The notes under the pieces: model-generated
The model's database searches: none
Seen by the model: only the letters and a program-made list of their open reading frames with translations
Told to the model about the DNA's origin: nothing
Source of the DNA: an uncultured Pirellulaceae bacterium
GTDB taxonomy: Bacteria; Planctomycetota; Planctomycetia; Pirellulales; Pirellulaceae
Assembly: GCA_938010615.1 (NCBI GenBank)
Contig: CALLUY010000188.1
Span: 1 to 38,418 of the forward strand
Length of the DNA: 38,418 nt
Direction: 5' to 3'
Made by a program: the position numbers and the translations under genes
In this document: positions 837 through 35,279 of the stretch, one piece after another
Layout: every line of letters begins with the position of its first letter
Numbering within the stretch: position 1 is the first letter of the stretch

Positions 837-1543
837 TTGCTCGCGAACTCACGAATGAGACCAACTAGAGCGGCTTGTTGCTCGCGATGAACGATGTGAC
901 CGGCGTTTGGCACGATTGTTACTGACAAGGCTTCTAACGAAGCTTCTTCGCGAATTCGAACTGCAATTTTTCGATACTTTTCGTCACGCTCACCAGCGAC
1001 AACCAAAGTTGGAATAGAAAGTTCACTCAATCGAGGCCAGTAGTTTGGTTGTTTCGCGACCGAACAGGCTCGCAAGATCGATGGCCAATCATCTGAGGAT
1101 CGAGCTGACTTTCGAGCGATTTCAGCACGGCGGATTTCTTCAGGCAAGTTGGCGAATACGCTCGCTTGATACCACTGATTCAAAAATGATTCCGCCGGTT
1201 CCGATTCGATACGTTCTGCAACGCTCTGATCCGCAAGCCAACGTTGCTCACGATCCTGTTCCGACTCAAGACCCGGATTACCCGAGACGAAGATCAATCC
1301 ATCGAAACGCTGTGGCTTCACGAGGGCAACGCCCAAACCCAGACGTGCTCCCATGGAGTAACCAACAATGATCGAGTCCGCTGGAATCGATTCAGCTAAC
1401 TGATTGACCGTTGATTGCCAATCATCACCCGCACGGACTTCGACGGCGGAGGTTTCAAACTCCGGCAGCGCAGCACGCACTTCGTCCCAGTCGGTCGGAT
1501 GGCCCATGAACCCATGGATGAAAGTTAGCTTTGGCTGCTGCAA
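827..1543 (-). CDS. menH: SHCHC synthase-like alpha/beta hydrolase (MenH)
   Basis: Predicted 2-succinyl-6-hydroxy-2,4-cyclohexadiene-1-carboxylate synthase, which eliminates pyruvate from the MenD product. The 238-residue protein is an alpha/beta hydrolase: HGFMG at residues 10-14 (oxyanion region), nucleophile motif GYSMG with Ser63, Asp187 in AGERDEKY and His216 in NAGHIVH, a complete triad. Family length is about 250. Its ATG lies inside the 3' end of menD, a 19-base overlap that implies translational coupling. The final codons and stop (KVA-stop) are formed by the edge of a family A palindrome, so the natural C-terminus may have been altered by that element. Operon position supports MenH over a generic hydrolase. 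Confidence 0.9.
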   Translation of the reverse strand: MQQPKLTFIHGFMGHPTDWDEVRAALPEFETSAVEVRAGDDWQSTVNQLAESIPADSIIVGYSMGARLGLGVALVKPQRFDGLIFVSGNPGLESEQDREQRWLADQSVAERIESEPAESFLNQWYQASVFANLPEEIRRAEIARKSARSSDDWPSILRACSVAKQPNYWPRLSELSIPTLVVAGERDEKYRKIAVRIREEASLEALSVTIVPNAGHIVHREQQAALVGLIREFASKVA

Positions 1544-3183
1544 TGTTTGATCTCTTCACGAATTTGTTTTCGCACTTCCATGTTGTACTGGCGATCCGTC
1601 ATCAGCTCCAAAATGATCGATCGATCTTGCGAACAGGCGCCTCGATAGCTTGCAGCGAAGTCGTCCATTTCCGTGATGCGACGATAGTCGATGCCGAACA
1701 TCTTCGCCGCATGTTCAAACTGATACTCGTGGGGAGTCGCGAAAAATTGTTCGAAGTGTTCCGATTCGCGAATCGGCAGCAGATCAAAAATGTGTCCGCC
1801 CTGATTGTTGAGAACCAACACGATCATCGGCCAAGGAGACTTCGCCACGAGCGACAACGAATTGAGGTCGTGCAGCGCAGACAAATCGCCAATCAAAACG
1901 GTCGTCGGTTGCTCGAGGCCGATCGCGTAGCCGGTTGCCGTCGCCAGCAAGCCATCGATGCCACTGGCGCCGCGATTGGCGGCGACGTTGCGGACTTTGT
2001 CGGACAAACCCTGACCAAACCAATCCATGTCGCGAATCGGCGTGCTGTTGCCAATGAACAAACCGTGAGACGTCGGACAATGTTTACTGACGTGAAAGGC
2101 GACGGCCGGTTCGCTTAACTTCTTTGGATCAGACAATTGCCGATCAACGATACCGCTTCGCTGCGCGCCGGCATCGCTCCACGATTGTAAAAACGAGTCG
2201 GAGGTTTTAGGGCCCGAAACGATCGATGACAACTGAATCAGATCGGCGTGATGTTGAGACACCGGAAGTCGATTCGGATTGACGATTTGGCCAGTTGGTG
2301 TGATGTGGTGGAAGTCGACCGTATCAGGCAGCGTCGCCGTCCATTGGTGCCAAGTCTTGGAAACGATTCGACCGCCCAAATGCAAAATCGTATCCGGAAC
2401 AGGCAGCTCGAATTCAGAAGGCAACTCGAGCGAACCGGTGCGCAAGCCGCTGGTCACGTCCGAGAGAATGGGGCAGTTCAAATTTTGGGAAAGCTCCCAT
2501 GATTGTTGTGCTTCGAATGGTTTGCAGCCGCCCAACGCGATCAAGACGTTGCCGCGGGTTTGGATTTGAAGTTCGGTTTTGTTGTGGGTCGGTGGAGACG
2601 GGAGACCACTCGCTTGCGCTTCGGGCTTGTATTGGGGCGGAGCCGGTTCGTCGGAAATGGTAAACGGTTCGCAGAACATCCAGTTGAAATGAACGGGACC
2701 GTTTTTGGTCGCGGCAAACCCTTGCTCGAGCGATTCGTCCAACGCAAAACTCTCATCGGGAACCGGCATGTTCACAAACAGTTTCGGATAGCCGCCAAAG
2801 ATGGCTCGCTGATCAATCGTCTGGTTGGCTCCGCTGCCGCGAAGTTCAGGTGGACGGTCTGCGGTAAAAAGCAGCATCGGCACGCTCTCGGCTGCCGCTT
2901 CGATCACTGCTGGAAACGCATTGGCGACGGCTGTTCCTGAAGTGCAAATGAACACGCCCGGCTTTCCGGTGGCTCTACCATATCCGAGTGCCGCAAAAGC
3001 AAGTCCGCGTTCGTCGAAGTGTTGGATTGCTTTGGCGCGACCGTCGCGAACCATACGGGCAACGGCCAGAGTCAGCGGCGTGCAGCGTGATCCCGGCGCA
3101 AGGAAAAAGTGATCGATCCCGTGTCGAAGGCAAAGCTCAATAGCTGAATTGGCCCAAACTTGGTCGACGCCAGCCATGTTCAT
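1525..3183 (-). CDS. menD: SEPHCHC synthase (MenD), thiamine-diphosphate enzyme
   Basis: Condenses isochorismate with 2-oxoglutarate, releasing CO2, in menaquinone synthesis. The 552-residue length matches the family. N-terminal TPP pyrimidine-binding domain: FLAPGSRCTPLTLA (residues 27-40), HFDERGLAFAALGYGRATGK (55-74) with the catalytic Glu in DERG, and CTSGTAVANAFPA. C-terminal TPP-binding domain: IGDLSALHDLNSLSL followed by VLNNQGGHIFDLLP. Residues 185-193 (YKPEAQASG) are encoded by 28 bases identical to one arm of a palindromic repeat found at 29767-29884. They lie in the linker between the first and central domains. The ATG is 6 bases downstream of the menF stop and menH overlaps the 3' end. 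The enzyme is probably functional, since flanking domains are intact and in frame. Confidence 0.96.
   Translation of the reverse strand: MNMAGVDQVWANSAIELCLRHGIDHFFLAPGSRCTPLTLAVARMVRDGRAKAIQHFDERGLAFAALGYGRATGKPGVFICTSGTAVANAFPAVIEAAAESVPMLLFTADRPPELRGSGANQTIDQRAIFGGYPKLFVNMPVPDESFALDESLEQGFAATKNGPVHFNWMFCEPFTISDEPAPPQYKPEAQASGLPSPPTHNKTELQIQTRGNVLIALGGCKPFEAQQSWELSQNLNCPILSDVTSGLRTGSLELPSEFELPVPDTILHLGGRIVSKTWHQWTATLPDTVDFHHITPTGQIVNPNRLPVSQHHADLIQLSSIVSGPKTSDSFLQSWSDAGAQRSGIVDRQLSDPKKLSEPAVAFHVSKHCPTSHGLFIGNSTPIRDMDWFGQGLSDKVRNVAANRGASGIDGLLATATGYAIGLEQPTTVLIGDLSALHDLNSLSLVAKSPWPMIVLVLNNQGGHIFDLLPIRESEHFEQFFATPHEYQFEHAAKMFGIDYRRITEMDDFAASYRGACSQDRSIILELMTDRQYNMEVRKQIREEIKHCSSQS
2604..2631. 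repeat. Half of palindromic repeat family C embedded in menD
   Basis: These 28 bases (GACCACTCGCTTGCG... ending GGGCTTGTA) match exactly the outer part of the right arm of the inverted repeat at 29767-29884. On the minus strand they read in frame as YKPEAQASGL in the MenD interdomain linker. No matching opposite arm is present nearby, so only half the element remains. Confidence 0.85.
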
Positions 3184-5288: not shown

Positions 5289-5345
5289 CGTAGCACGGTG
5301 GTCTCCACCGTTTATGAAGCTTACGGTGGGGACCACCGTGCTACG
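5289..5345. repeat. Palindromic repeat family B (copy 1)
   Basis: The arms CGTAGCACGGTGGTCTCCAC and GTGGGGACCACCGTGCTACG form a nearly perfect inverted repeat around a short AT-rich loop. Related copies lie at 25575-25632 and 35221-35279. This copy is about 50 bases upstream of the first men gene, inside the likely promoter/leader region. Confidence 0.85.
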
Positions 5346-23916: not shown

Positions 23917-24089
23917 GTATCCCTTTCAAAGGAGTAATGTGATGGACATAGAATATATTATTGACGCATTCCAAAAAGTCCAGTTCCATCGTAATTCTGG
24001 ATTCTGATGGCATTTGGGCCCCTTTTGAGCCAAAGCCCACTCTGAGACACTCTAGCAGCACGTTTCGCAACCTTCATTTTCGGTCCGGC

Positions 24090-25481
24090 ATGCCTTCATC
24101 AACTCCCCGCCGCACACTTTCGTTGCTCGATTCGATCTGCATCATCGTCGGCACGATCATCGGAGCCGGCGTTTTTGGCACCGCGGCAAAGGTCGCCGGG
24201 ATGACTCCCAACGTCACCGTGATGATCGGGATGTGGATTGCCGCAGGCCTGATCGTGCTCGTTGGAGCCGCGTGCTTTATTGAGCTAACCACACGTTTCC
24301 CGGATGAGGCGGGCGGAGACTACGCCTATTTGAAGAAGGCCTATGGCCATCCAATTGCCTTCATGTTCGCTTGGTCAGCATTCTGGATCGTAAGGCCAGC
24401 CAACATTGGCATCATGGCAACGCTGTTTGGGATTCACTTTGCTCAGATCATCACCGCGTTTCCCATGGTGAATCAGATTCCTAGCTCGACGTTGCAAATC
24501 TTGGGCGCGATTGGTGCGATCGCTCTACTAACTGGTGGAAATCTGGTGGGCATCAAAAATGGAAAGCTGACACAGAATATTTTGACCATCGCGAAAATCG
24601 CGGGCATTGGATTGATCATCTTGTTGGCGTTGACGCACCCTATCACTGAAGCCGTCGCGCCGGTGGAATCAAAATGGGAAATCAAATCTCTTTGGTTGGC
24701 TTTGGTATTTGTCATGTTCAGCTTTGGCGGCTGGAATGACATGGCGATGATCGCGAACGAGATTCGATCGCCAAAAAAGAACTTGTGGCGCTGCCTGATT
24801 TTTGGCGTCGGAATTGTGACGCTGGTCTACGTGACGTTTAACATTGCCTTGGCGGTTGGGCTCGGACAAGCCGGCATGGCGGCTTCTGAATCACCTGCAA
24901 TTACACTGGTAGCAACAGCGCTCGGCGGAGAAGGATTCCTTGCCGAACGAGCCAAGGAACTGGTCGCGGCTTTGATCTGTATTTCCTGTCTTGGTGCCGT
25001 CAACGGAATGATCATCACCAGCCCACGAATCTACTACGCCGTTGGGCGAGATTATCCAGCGCTCAACTTTTTGGCACAATGGAATGACGAACGGAGTTGT
25101 CCATGGCAAGCATTGATACTCCAGTCGTTGGTGACGATTTCGCTGATTCTGTTTTGCGTGATGTTTAAATTCCACGCCATCGAAATCTTCGACGTGCTGT
25201 TGGTCGCATCGGCACCTTACTTCTGGACCTTCCTCGGGGCGACGGTGCTTTCGTTGTTGGTCTTTCGGGCGAGGGAGAAATCGAAGGGAACGCACTTTCG
25301 TCTTCCGCTGTTTCCGCTTGAGCCGATTTTTTTCGCGATCGTGTGTGCGGGGCTGACGTATAACGCCATCGACTATTTGATGTTCAAACAGTATCAGATG
25401 ATCACGGTCGCAATCGGAGGCATGATGCTGGTGGGCGTTGTATTGGGTGTGCTGTTGAAAACGAAGAAAGTTGATGGGTAG
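24090..25481 (+). CDS. APC-family amino acid permease
   Basis: The 463-residue membrane protein has about 12 predicted helices. The N-terminal APC signature is TLSLLDSICIIVGTIIGAGVFGTAAKVAG, where the unwound first helix binds the substrate backbone. It is followed by FIELTTRFPDEAGGDYAYLKKAYG and WSAFWIVRPANIG, then FGGWNDMAMIANEIRSPKKNL in the middle. The ATG at 24090 is chosen because an in-frame TTG at 23961 would add 43 residues of non-conserved, hydrophilic sequence. Substrate is likely an amino acid, but the type cannot be told. A 7-bp hairpin follows the stop immediately. Confidence 0.92.
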   Translation: MPSSTPRRTLSLLDSICIIVGTIIGAGVFGTAAKVAGMTPNVTVMIGMWIAAGLIVLVGAACFIELTTRFPDEAGGDYAYLKKAYGHPIAFMFAWSAFWIVRPANIGIMATLFGIHFAQIITAFPMVNQIPSSTLQILGAIGAIALLTGGNLVGIKNGKLTQNILTIAKIAGIGLIILLALTHPITEAVAPVESKWEIKSLWLALVFVMFSFGGWNDMAMIANEIRSPKKNLWRCLIFGVGIVTLVYVTFNIALAVGLGQAGMAASESPAITLVATALGGEGFLAERAKELVAALICISCLGAVNGMIITSPRIYYAVGRDYPALNFLAQWNDERSCPWQALILQSLVTISLILFCVMFKFHAIEIFDVLLVASAPYFWTFLGATVLSLLVFRAREKSKGTHFRLPLFPLEPIFFAIVCAGLTYNAIDYLMFKQYQMITVAIGGMMLVGVVLGVLLKTKKVDG

Positions 25482-25574: not shown

Positions 25575-25632
25575 GTAGCTCGGCGGTCTCCGCCGTGACA
25601 TAACAGAACAACGGTGGGGACCACCGTGCTAC
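25575..25632. repeat. Palindromic repeat family B (copy 2)
   Basis: GTAGCTCGGCGGTCTCCGCC at the left and GGTGGGGACCACCGTGCTAC at the right pair imperfectly around an AT-rich loop. It lies in the convergent gap between the permease gene and the small basic protein. Confidence 0.8.
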
Positions 25633-25730: not shown

Positions 25731-25820
25731 TTACTTTTTGCGATGACGAATTTTGGCTCTCATGCGTCGTTTTTTTCTGCCAACTTTTCGTCGACCCTTT
25801 CCGGTCTTTTTAGTGCCCAC
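25731..25820 (-). CDS. 29-residue very basic protein, candidate ribosome-associated
   Basis: On the minus strand a GTG start (25818-25820) opens a 29-codon frame ending TAA. The peptide begins MGTKKTGKGRRKVG and ends AKIRHRKK. Eighteen of 29 residues are Lys, Arg or His, and there are no acidic residues. GGAGAG lies 8 bases upstream of the GTG, a good Shine-Dalgarno in a genome where these are rare, which supports real translation. Size and charge recall tiny ribosomal proteins such as bTHX or the bS22/mS38 (AURKAIP1/COX24-like) group, though I cannot show homology. It precedes nothing on its strand and lies downstream of yaaA. Confidence 0.7.
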   Translation of the reverse strand: MGTKKTGKGRRKVGRKKRRMRAKIRHRKK

Positions 25821-25927
25821 TCGTTACTCTCCAAAATTGATACTTAATTGATTGCTGGTCCCGCGTGTTTAGGCGGGCTACGAATTGTAACCAGGCCCCA
25901 TAAAACGCGGCAAGACGAAAAAGCACG

Positions 25928-26695
25928 TCATCCCCGCAGAAACACCGGCTTATTCTCGGTCGACTCTTCAGCCGAGTATCGATAGCCGTCTTCGGCGAAT
26001 TTCGTCAATTTCTTCGGATCTGTCACCTTTTTGCGGATCATCCAGCCCGACATCGTCCCCCGAGCCTTCTTCGCGAAGAAGCTGATTAGCTTGTACTTGC
26101 CGTTCTTCATATCTTTGAAGACCGGCGAAATAACCCGAGCCTTCAATCGGGACGGGATCACAGAATTGAAGTATTCGTTCGATGCGAGATTCAGCAACAC
26201 ATCGTTGTCGATCTTCTTGAGCTGTTTGTTGAGAGCATCGGTGATGTCCGGCCCCCAGAAATCGTAGAGATTGTTGCCGTGTTCGGTTGGCAATTTCGTT
26301 CCCATCTCGAGACGATATGGCTGCATCAAATCGAACGGCCGCAGAATTCCGTAGAGCCCGGAAAGCATTCGAAAGTGCTCCTGCGCGAACAGACAATCCG
26401 CTTCGTTCATCGAGTAAGCGTCAAGTCCTTGATAGACGTCGCCTTTGAAAGCGAACATCGCCGCCCGCGCGTTTTTCTTAGTGGCCTTCGGCTCCCACGC
26501 TTCGTAGCGGTTCACGTTCAGCTCGGCCAGCTTGTCACTGATCGACATCAACTTCGAAAGCTTCTTCGGTGTGTAGTCGCGCAGGACGTTCACCAACTCC
26601 GCACTGCGCTTCATGAACACAGGCTGTGATGTTTTTGCGATGGGCAAAGGAGTTTCGTAATCCAGCGTCTTGGCTGGGGAGACAACGATCAGCAT
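25928..26695 (-). CDS. yaaA: Peroxide stress protein YaaA (DUF328/UPF0246)
   Basis: The 255-residue protein matches the YaaA family throughout: MLIVVSPAKTLDYETP at the start, ELNVNRYEAW, MFAFKGDVYQGLDA, RMLSGLYGILRPFDLMQPYRLEMGTKL, LYDFWG, LNLASNEYFNSV, and SFFAKKARGTMSGWMI near the end. E. coli YaaA lowers intracellular free iron during peroxide stress and has a DNA-binding fold. The ATG at 26695 is chosen by homology; the frame stays open 51 codons upstream with no family similarity. It stands alone between the small basic protein and the second propeller/cytochrome gene. Confidence 0.95.
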   Translation of the reverse strand: MLIVVSPAKTLDYETPLPIAKTSQPVFMKRSAELVNVLRDYTPKKLSKLMSISDKLAELNVNRYEAWEPKATKKNARAAMFAFKGDVYQGLDAYSMNEADCLFAQEHFRMLSGLYGILRPFDLMQPYRLEMGTKLPTEHGNNLYDFWGPDITDALNKQLKKIDNDVLLNLASNEYFNSVIPSRLKARVISPVFKDMKNGKYKLISFFAKKARGTMSGWMIRKKVTDPKKLTKFAEDGYRYSAEESTENKPVFLRG

Positions 26696-26762
26696 GGTTG
26701 GTTTTCGAGTAAAAGAAACTTCAAGAGCTAAAACAGTATAAACCGAGCTTCCATGGGTCTGC

Positions 26763-28919
26763 CTACTCCATCGAGTCGATCCACTCTCGCAGCAGGTCAA
26801 CTGCTTTCTCGTCGATGACATTGCTACCAATGTTAGGCATCCGCCCATTGGAGATCGTGTTCATGCGGCGGTAGAGCAACGAAGCTTCTGCGTCGCCGGG
26901 CTTGATGATCCGCGCATCCGCAATTCCCAAATCACCCTGAGCCGGTTTCTGCCCGATCATCTTTGTGTCGTCGAGCTTCGTGGCGAACCGCAAATCGATA
27001 CTTGCGTTGCCGGGGCCATTGGGGCGATGACACATCGCACAGTTGACGTCCAAAAGAACTCGAGCACGAGTTTCCAGATCGCAACTTTCGTCTGCCGGAT
27101 TGCAATGCTTGGCAGCCGTCGCGACGTCGAAGTTCTCAGGAACATCTTTCACTAGCTCTCGCTCAATGAAGTCAGCAATCTGATTTTTGTCTTCGTAGGT
27201 GCCGTTCAGCTGAGCCGTATTGAGCCCCAAAACGTAGCCGGCGGAATCCACGTGACAACTGGCACACTCCGACGAGGAAGGCCCGTGCCAAGTTGATGGC
27301 TTCCATTGCTTGGAACCTTTTACCGGCATCCAACGCTCAAGCTGCTTGCCTTCGGGATGGAGCGTCGCATCGAGTCCCTTCTTGTCCCAAATGTACGTCG
27401 CCGCTTCCCAACCGCTTTCGATTCGCTTGATCACGCGAGTCTCCAGCATGCGATTGTTTTCGCCAGCGCGAAAGTTCTTGATGATCTCTGTCCCGACTGG
27501 AACTTCCCAAGAACCTTCGCTGCGGTAGCTGATCGCCGTGTCTTGCGGCAAACGGAAGTAGCGACTCTTTTCCGCTCCATCGGACCAAAAAGGAGCATTC
27601 ACTTTGTACTCAACGTAGGCGTCAGACATTTTTCGTTTCTTCAGATCGGCGAAAATCTCTGTCTCCGAAAGCTGTTTCGGCCAGTCCTCAAGAAAGTTCT
27701 GCGGAGCATCAGTCGGCATCACTCGATAAATTTTGCCATCGAAACTGAGCAAGTAAACTTCGCCGTCTGCATCTTCTCCGAAAGCAGCAATGCTCTGGCC
27801 CGTTCTCCGCACCAGCGTATTTTCAAACTCGCCATCTTCTTTCTTGTGAATTCGCCACATGTTGCCCGACAGGTAGTCGCCGTAAAAATACGAACCATCC
27901 AATTCCGGAAACTTCTTGCCGCGATACACGTTGCCGCCGGTTACCGACAATCCCCATTGCCGCCCGTAGCTGGCGACTGGTTCGTCGTGTTCTTCGGTTG
28001 CAAGCTCCACTTTCTTTCGAAACGACTCGCCAGCTTCCCAACGATTCCAACCGTAGTTCCCGCCGTTGCGAACGATATCGATTTCATCGAAGCGATCCTG
28101 CCCGACGTCGCCCGCCCACAGATCACCTGTTTTTCGATCCATCGAAAACCGCCAAACGTTTCGTAGTCCGCATGCAAAAATTTCTCCGCGGGCGCCTTCG
28201 TGGCTGGCGAACACGTTGTCTTTAGGAATCGCGTACTCCAATCCCGGATCTTTGTTGTCGACGTCAATTCGTAAAATCGCGCCCAGCAACGTCGTCAGAT
28301 CCTGACCACTGCCAAGCGGATCGTTTGCTTTACCGCCATCACCGAAAGAGATGTACAGCAATCCATCTTTTGGTCCAAACGCAATCGTGCCGCCGTTGTG
28401 ATTTCGAAACGGTTGCTCTTGCTCAAGGATGATCTCTTCAGATTCTGGATCGCCAACCGTTGGATCGTCTGCTTTGACTCGATAGCGAGCAACGACGCCT
28501 TTCATGCCCTTTGCTTGTTTGCCATCGGCAATCAGATCTTTGTCCGAAGAGTAGTGCACAAAAAACTGGCCGTTGTTTTTGAAGTCCGGATGAAAGGCAA
28601 ATCCAATCAGTCCTTCTTCATTACCGACGCGGTTCACTTTTTCGCTGATATCAAGAAAGATCTTCGTCGTCGAAGTCTCTGCATCGTTTTGGAAAACGTG
28701 AACAACGCCGTTTTGCTCAACCACAAACAGACGATCGTCGCCGACGTGATCCAAATGAACGGGCCGGTTGAATCGTAACTTGGGAAAGGCATTCTCGATG
28801 CCAACACCTTTCAATTCTTCTTCAGCTGCGACCGCTTCATCGGCCTGAGCCGCGATCGTATCGGCGGCGGTACCGGTTAGGATCATCAAAAGAGCACAGA
28901 AAGAAATCCACTTTGTCAT
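26763..28919 (-). CDS. Secreted glucose/sorbosone dehydrogenase-like propeller with two cytochrome c motifs
   Basis: The 718-residue protein starts MTKWISFCALLMILTGTAAD, a signal peptide. An in-frame ATG 39 bases upstream is an alternative. The propeller (about 45-400) has FVVEQNGVVHVF, EEGLIGFAFHPDF, FGDGGKANDPLGSGQDLTTLLGAILRIDVDN, GLRNVWRFS, LWAGDVGQDRFDEIDIVRNGGNYGWN and SVTGGNVY, typical of PQQ-dependent aldose dehydrogenases. Heme c motifs CASCH (552-556) and CAMCH (627-631) follow. The end reads GDAEASLLYRRMNTISNGRMPNIGS, shared with the 982-residue paralogue at 11802-14750. The paralogue has an extra C-terminal heme module that this one lacks. Predicted periplasmic oxidoreductase; substrate unknown. 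Confidence 0.9.
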   Translation of the reverse strand: MTKWISFCALLMILTGTAADTIAAQADEAVAAEEELKGVGIENAFPKLRFNRPVHLDHVGDDRLFVVEQNGVVHVFQNDAETSTTKIFLDISEKVNRVGNEEGLIGFAFHPDFKNNGQFFVHYSSDKDLIADGKQAKGMKGVVARYRVKADDPTVGDPESEEIILEQEQPFRNHNGGTIAFGPKDGLLYISFGDGGKANDPLGSGQDLTTLLGAILRIDVDNKDPGLEYAIPKDNVFASHEGARGEIFACGLRNVWRFSMDRKTGDLWAGDVGQDRFDEIDIVRNGGNYGWNRWEAGESFRKKVELATEEHDEPVASYGRQWGLSVTGGNVYRGKKFPELDGSYFYGDYLSGNMWRIHKKEDGEFENTLVRRTGQSIAAFGEDADGEVYLLSFDGKIYRVMPTDAPQNFLEDWPKQLSETEIFADLKKRKMSDAYVEYKVNAPFWSDGAEKSRYFRLPQDTAISYRSEGSWEVPVGTEIIKNFRAGENNRMLETRVIKRIESGWEAATYIWDKKGLDATLHPEGKQLERWMPVKGSKQWKPSTWHGPSSSECASCHVDSAGYVLGLNTAQLNGTYEDKNQIADFIERELVKDVPENFDVATAAKHCNPADESCDLETRARVLLDVNCAMCHRPNGPGNASIDLRFATKLDDTKMIGQKPAQGDLGIADARIIKPGDAEASLLYRRMNTISNGRMPNIGSNVIDEKAVDLLREWIDSME

Positions 28920-29766: not shown

Positions 29767-29884
29767 TACAAGCCCGAAGCGCAAGCGAGTGGTCGATCCG
29801 CGCGTGGACAACGCGTAACCGATCGCAGCGTTTCAGGGTTGCCCGATTCTCGGATCGACCACTCGCTTGCGCTTCGGGCTTGTA
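29767..29884. repeat. Palindromic repeat family C, perfect 34-bp arms
   Basis: The left arm 29767-29800 (TACAAGCCCGAAGCGCAAGC...) and right arm 29851-29884 are exact reverse complements around a 50-base spacer. The element begins at the base after the sigma factor stop codon. Each arm contains the sequence that reads YKPEAQASG, and the outer 28 bases of one arm also occur inside menD at 2604-2631. Confidence 0.9.
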
Positions 29885-35220: not shown

Positions 35221-35279
35221 CGTAGCACGGTGGTCCCCACCGTATTTAGCATATTTACGGTGGAGACCACCGAGCTACG
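35221..35279. repeat. Palindromic repeat family B (copy 3)
   Basis: CGTAGCACGGTGGTCCCCAC and GTGGAGACCACCGAGCTACG are near-perfect reverse complements around an AT-rich loop. The element nearly fills the 88-base gap between the PSD1 protein gene and the DUF1501 gene, which are read in the same direction. Confidence 0.85.

Follow-up and report, generated by a model that had tools for sequence, protein, structure and literature searches.

Does a frame of 29 codons with an extremely basic product represent a gene and, if it does, what is the product for? The question is raised by a locus in a stretch of 38,418 nucleotides from an uncultured Pirellulaceae bacterium (the whole stretch analysed, hereafter the window), where a frame encoding MGTKKTGKGRRKVGRKKRRMRAKIRHRKK occupies positions 25731–25820 of the minus strand, starting with GTG at 25820 and running through 29 codons to a TAA stop. 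A Shine-Dalgarno-like GGAGAG (25827–25832, minus strand) precedes the GTG with a spacer of 6 nt. An earlier note had reported this frame with its coordinates, its GTG start, GGAGAG at proper spacing, 18 Lys, Arg or His residues among 29 and no acidic residue; reanalysis bears out each of these points (9 Lys, 8 Arg and 1 His, counted by eye) and adds the strand, which had not been given. On the plus strand, the same interval yields a translation unrelated to MGTKKTGKGRRKVGRKKRRMRAKIRHRKK. Among the 1071 start codons of 20–50-residue frames in the window, nested starts included, that of the 29-residue gene is the only one to reach at least 55% Lys, Arg and His. In 60 dinucleotide-preserving shuffles of the window, two frames in total reached 55%, and none combined at least 60% with a Shine-Dalgarno-like site and zero acidic residues.

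Upstream of the gene is a promoter-like pair, TTGCCG-18-TACAAT (25884–25913, minus strand), graded as weak because one such pair was found against 0.4 expected in shuffles. A terminator-like stem-loop (25608–25627, minus strand) lies about 100 nt past the stop and is likewise graded as weak, since two overlapping sites were found against 0.7 expected. The stem-loop falls within a palindromic element, composed of inverted GTAGC(A/T)CGG(T/C)GGTC pairs about 30 bp apart, that recurs at 5290–5344, 25575–25632 and 35222–35278; the copy at 25575–25632 follows the gene and could act as its terminator. The window also carries a 22-bp repeat, AAGCCCGAAGCGCAAGCGAGTG (which reads as KPEAQAS), at 2607–2628 (minus), 29770–29791 (plus) and 29860–29881 (minus), with 0 copies expected in shuffles. 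Its first 20 bases have 101 exact copies in the same genome, some of them in tandem or inverted pairs, and one copy in the window is in frame within a 552-residue ORF at 1525–3183.

The earlier note had named conservation of the frame in relatives as its own test, and this test found the frame conserved in 240 of 248 Planctomycetia genomes drawn, with one match each in a single-sequence search; the matches listed from this draw span 23–29 of the 29 residues. Among the nearest genomes, 58 of 60 (the source genome included) matched over 28–29 residues, with 19 of the 20 families drawn matched. When genomes were drawn from the whole phylum, 39 of 392 matched at E<=0.01, every one in the same class; by listing order, 39 of the 40 genomes from the class matched, compared with 0 of the 352 from outside it. 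Reading of 136 loci, which include some places fetched twice, recovered the peptide at 135, the remaining one being an unrelated Thx match. One genome (G029) appeared to hold a duplicate pair on two contigs that are identical over 4.17 kb, and the duplicate is therefore probably assembly redundancy.

Across 129 distinct sequences, mean pairwise identity is 0.84, 0.91 and 0.42 at the first, second and third codon positions, respectively, while the flanks are at the random level, with 0.27 over the 60 nt that precede the gene and 0.29 on the downstream side. The ratio of nonsynonymous to synonymous change, computed pairwise without a tree, is 0.013 of the random expectation, and all six codons are used at several of the arginine positions. 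For 99 of the 129 homologues, the 22 nt upstream contain a Shine-Dalgarno-like 4-mer, compared with 24 of 129 in a control window from −60 to −39. In 7 of the 129, a shorter N-terminus puts the true start several codons further into the register. The 29-residue frame is thus a genuine protein gene whose product is subject to extreme purifying selection. A chance open frame, short and unmatched by curated models as this one is, is refuted by the conservation and the codon-level selection together, leaving that explanation a practically negligible probability. A reading of the locus as an RNA element was also rejected, being opposed by the free third codon positions and by a search of Rfam at the gathering threshold, which gave zero families across the window.

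Extreme basicity could also be that of a protamine-like or nucleoid-compacting DNA-binding peptide, and planctomycete nucleoids have been described as condensed. Nonspecific condensing peptides, however, are expected to tolerate exchange between Lys and Arg and changes in length, whereas specific Arg, Lys, Gly and His positions are invariant among 22 chosen class rows and the size of the protein is nearly constant, making a condensing role very unlikely. Representatives in the alignments (A2, A4 and A5) were chosen by hand, with one divergent class sequence (L081) omitted.

In the window, the gene sits between a peroxide-stress YaaA gene (PF03883; ORF 25928–26848, minus strand) and an amino-acid permease gene (PF13520; ORF 23961–25481, plus strand). 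Among the class loci, no neighbour is widely shared, the largest purely class cluster comprising 8 of 62 loci, and a class-wide operon partner, a toxin-antitoxin role and a mobile-element role were dropped on this ground. Preservation of the sequence while the neighbours change is as expected of a free-standing housekeeping gene. A different arrangement is seen at the loci of the Phycisphaerae-type form described below (L194–L274), which have a shared block, with one neighbouring family in 68 of 85, mostly downstream and on the same strand; fatty-acid synthesis-like proteins, named by eye, lie further downstream at some of them. Some loci in this neighbourhood comparison are the same place twice, and three of the six canonical-bS22 loci were read for it.

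Related frames were found elsewhere in the phylum. A profile of the class form retrieved 25–26-residue frames in other families with the pattern M[AGSP]K[PSA]RRRRK[IV]GSKKR..RWK[IV]R[HN]K, and a DNA pattern for this Phycisphaerae-type form located 81 stretches in a species-level genome collection. Planctomycetes account for 79 of the 81, labelled Planctomycetota, Planctomycetes, Phycisphaerae, Phycisphaerales, Sedimentisphaerales or Anaerohalosphaeraceae, and the other two (L237 and L252) are labelled only 'uncultured bacterium'. All 80 of the stretches that were read, out of 81, are ATG-started frames of 25–27 residues, and nearly all 80 have GGAG or a close variant just upstream, as judged by eye. 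As the DNA pattern was designed around one form and would overlook others, it sets no bounds on the family. A third form, M[AG]FKPRRRRKIGSKKRR[MN]R[KR][LN][MR][RS]KKK, occurs in four genomes (family f67). Both of these further forms, 25–27 residues in length and outside the class, keep the frame, the size and the core. On the planctomycete chromosome CP070728.1 (bin43, 2.27 Mb), the Phycisphaerae-type peptide is encoded twice, by copies that differ from each other (L214 and L233) and lie about 1 Mb apart. A wider search of the phylum with profile A2 at E<=1 matched 103 of 294 genomes, mostly weakly; some of these matches were opened, and eight loci (L144, L153, L156, L181 and L190–L193) held no family member on reading, with L144 and L181 read on the plus strand only and the L181 match lying on the minus strand.

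Curated resources do not name the protein. Pfam and NCBIfam returned zero families for all 22 members scanned, the bS22/COX24_C models (NF047430 and PF08213) were not matched by the family, and PDB sequence searches with single sequences and with profiles gave zero matches. A bS22 query of the Flavobacterium type likewise received zero families from Pfam and NCBIfam, so the failure of these libraries is weak counter-evidence. In the source genome, which is 84% complete, PF08213 had zero matches. The bTHX models (PF17070 and TIGR04560) were not matched by the family either, and the GTYG core of bTHX is absent by eye. In the open-licence literature, the peptide sequence strings were not found, no description of the 29-residue protein was found and, in a narrow search, no planctomycete ribosome structure was found.

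As the sequence consists mostly of Lys and Arg, resemblance to known tiny basic ribosomal proteins was assessed by column permutation, a procedure that leaves composition and conservation intact. Against bS22 of the Flavobacterium, Borrelia and planctomycete type, the observed score was reached by 11 of 5000 permutations (z 3.6), by 47 of 5000 when gap costs were stiffer, by 4 of 5000 when they were softer, and in an earlier run by 0 of 400, whichever side was permuted. Taken apart, the three forms of the family gave 60, 8 and 55 of 4000 against the same target, and the class form alone against three bS22 sequences from the PDB gave a weaker 159 of 4000. For the other targets, the corresponding counts out of 4000 were 597, 1083 and 1774 (actinobacterial bS22), 296, 2461 and 1392 (eL41), 267, 3555 and 2797 (bTHX) and 873, 1778 and 3615 (bL37), all above 5% for every form, and the decoys bL34 and bL36 gave 168 and 354 of 400. 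The comparison favours bS22, which was represented by seven sequences against one or two for the other targets, and bS22 was noticed before it was tested, with several targets tried. In profile–profile alignment with hhalign, two broader profiles aligned over 23 columns with a P value of 0.0013 and a probability of only 18.5%, while earlier, narrower profiles aligned over just 4 columns with a probability of 0.9%. By these sequence comparisons, bS22 of the Flavobacterium/Borrelia type is the only one of the tiny basic ribosomal proteins tried whose resemblance appears to go beyond composition, and homology of the 29-residue family to bS22 is likely rather than certain.

The earlier note had suggested a lineage-specific component of the ribosome, naming no particular ribosomal protein. 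A lineage-specific, tiny protein of housekeeping type stands, while its place in the ribosome is supported indirectly, by composition, by conservation and by the composition-controlled resemblance to bS22. With a probability of roughly 60%, the gene would encode a divergent bS22-type protein of the 30S subunit, bound in the pocket formed by h27, h44 and h45. According to an excerpt of the work on Borrelia, bS22 forms a bent helix that occupies a pocket between 16S rRNA helices h2, h27, h44 and h45 and touches H68 of the 23S rRNA (PMC10618245). The planctomycete protein has a comparable plan, in which a short basic lead is followed by a conserved glycine and, in the class form, by a basic stretch of 15 residues with RH(R/K)K at its end. 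It is therefore proposed to fill the same pocket and to stiffen the decoding region and the subunit interface. Under this proposal, the protein would be an unannotated, constitutive small-subunit protein of planctomycetes, the counterpart of bS22 and, functionally, of mS38/Cox24 and eL41. Its N-terminal GKGRRKxG segment would insert into the 16S rRNA cavity (h27, h44 and h45) below the decoding centre, the chain would plausibly bend at the conserved glycine, and the KKRRMRAKIRHRKK segment would then form a basic helix that follows h44 towards the interface between the subunits. Such a helix may neutralise rRNA phosphates, stiffen upper h44 and support inter-subunit contact and initiation. The level of expression, the helix, binding to the ribosome, the site bound and the effect are all predictions of this model. 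Because curated models fail and the site is predicted, membership of the protein in the bS22 family is not treated as established.

A planctomycete-specific ribosomal protein unrelated to bS22 is unlikely, whether it binds at another rRNA site, such as that of bTHX on the 30S head or bL37 on the 50S subunit, or has converged on the bS22 pocket. It would agree with the lack of any matching curated family, and the bTHX slot may be open in the source genome, where no credible bTHX was found (best E 2.2; an 11.8-bit Thx match was dropped, as it lies inside a 344-residue frame). The permutation results for bTHX and bL37, by contrast, speak against these two sites in the class form as well as in the Phycisphaerae form (the first and second of each set of counts above), and the missing GTYG core opposes a bTHX-like reading. 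A somewhat larger, still minor chance is given to the possibility that this family, absent from curated libraries and characteristic of planctomycetes, is a non-homologous occupant of the bS22/mS38/eL41 pocket. If true, it would be a further case of unrelated basic peptides of 25–30 residues plugging the same rRNA hole in different lineages. Another RNA-related role, in ribosome assembly, hibernation or as a cofactor of rRNA modification, would not require the protein to be a stoichiometric part of the ribosome; composition and near-universality suit any rRNA-associated role, and the class loci lack a widely shared neighbour that would hint at a specific partner. This role is nevertheless improbable, given the resemblance to bS22 and the fact that almost every class genome sampled has the gene, mostly with a Shine-Dalgarno lead.

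A combined profile of the family matched 32 genomes of a 294-genome phylum draw, among them all 21 class members and 11 of the 273 genomes from outside the class; ten of the 11 were read as members and one (G148) as chance. In the same draw, a bS22 profile matched eight genomes, with six full-length proteins, one 22-residue short form (G063) and one match taken as chance, as it lies inside an 812-residue frame (G299). The six full-length canonical bS22 proteins, mostly of the pattern PCGRK...HKR.KR...RHKK, belong to planctomycetes outside the class, and the 29-residue family was not found in these six. Within the class, the bS22 profile found canonical bS22 in 0 of 98 genomes, the six matches of the same profile in the phylum serving as a working control. 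No genome of the 294 is in both lists, a pattern compatible with replacement of one protein by the other. The pattern is only suggestive, because the overlap expected by chance is below one genome and 256 of the 294 have neither protein at these thresholds. The genomes with neither may carry forms too diverged for these profiles or belong to lineages that have neither protein.

A narrower bS22 profile matched 36 of the 294 genomes at E<=1, six of them strongly (E<=1.2e-6) and the rest at 0.005 or weaker, with three weak matches in genomes of the class (G164, G252 and G274). Reading of six weak loci (L143, L144, L147, L149, L153 and L156) found nothing there, and the remaining weak matches, apart from that in G299, were assumed to be chance without reading. 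Among the six canonical bS22 frames outside the class (L137–L142), four have Val or Leu at the expected first Met, which makes a GTG or TTG start likely; in L142, the start codon was seen to be GTG. The short form in G063 (L294, about 1486–1551) is a 22-residue frame, MGSVLKWRRKKINKHKRKKRRR, that stops before the RHKK end. It resembles actinobacterial bS22 at its start and the Flavobacterium type thereafter, and from this sequence it is possibly a link between bS22 types or else a truncated copy.

Planctomycetes form a large phylum with unusual cells, and their ribosomes probably carry an overlooked part. The absence of the protein from curated libraries is explained by its length of 29 residues, a frequent GTG start and a composition dominated by Lys and Arg; its core motifs would enable annotators to include the gene in many genomes. 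Should it be of the bS22 type, the pocket at the decoding centre would be filled in many more bacteria than curated models show. In yeast mitochondria, initiation on certain mRNAs is disturbed when mS38 is lost, a loss believed to set upper h44 free, and both bS22 and mS38 have been proposed to act in initiation on mRNAs that have no Shine-Dalgarno site, as described in part of one study (PMC6582356). A bS22-type protein in planctomycetes would make such a role testable in a lineage whose own gene for it is mostly Shine-Dalgarno-led.

Compared with known systems, the protein shares with bTHX (PF17070) the character of a tiny basic protein, in that case of the 30S subunit, and differs from it in matching no bTHX model, in lacking the GTYG core and in its permutation result (267 of 4000 for the class form). 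Actinobacterial bS22 and mS38/Cox24 (PF08213 and NF047430) share its basicity, bS22 shares its size class, and the pocket would be the same if the bS22-type hypothesis holds; no model matched, and the resemblance is not above composition (597 of 4000). A 25-residue basic helix, eL41 (eS32), occupies an analogous site, lined in archaea by h27, h44 and h45, with bS22 and mS38 in the corresponding place, according to a portion of PMC7005279. Its likeness to the class form is not clearly above composition (296 of 4000), and no PDB chain of eL41 was found by profile. The closest likeness is to bS22 of Flavobacterium johnsoniae (PDB 7JIL) and Borrelia (PDB 8FMW), which have 28–30 residues and about 60% Lys and Arg, like the form in the window. 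At 29 residues, this form falls within the size and composition of bS22 (about 28–33 residues, about 60% Lys and Arg and no further domain), and its relatives have 25–30 residues, with starts chosen by hand where the N-terminus is shorter. Unlike these two proteins, the form in the window has neither the MP.G start nor the THKRKK segment, and its alignment to them requires gaps where the bend is presumed and close to the C-terminus. All three have RH at residues 25–26, followed by a basic end. Like the 29-residue gene, that for Borrelia bS22 was previously unannotated and is GUG-started, its product being 61% Lys and Arg, and in the excerpted text its authors expected bS22 to be present in other species (PMC10618245).
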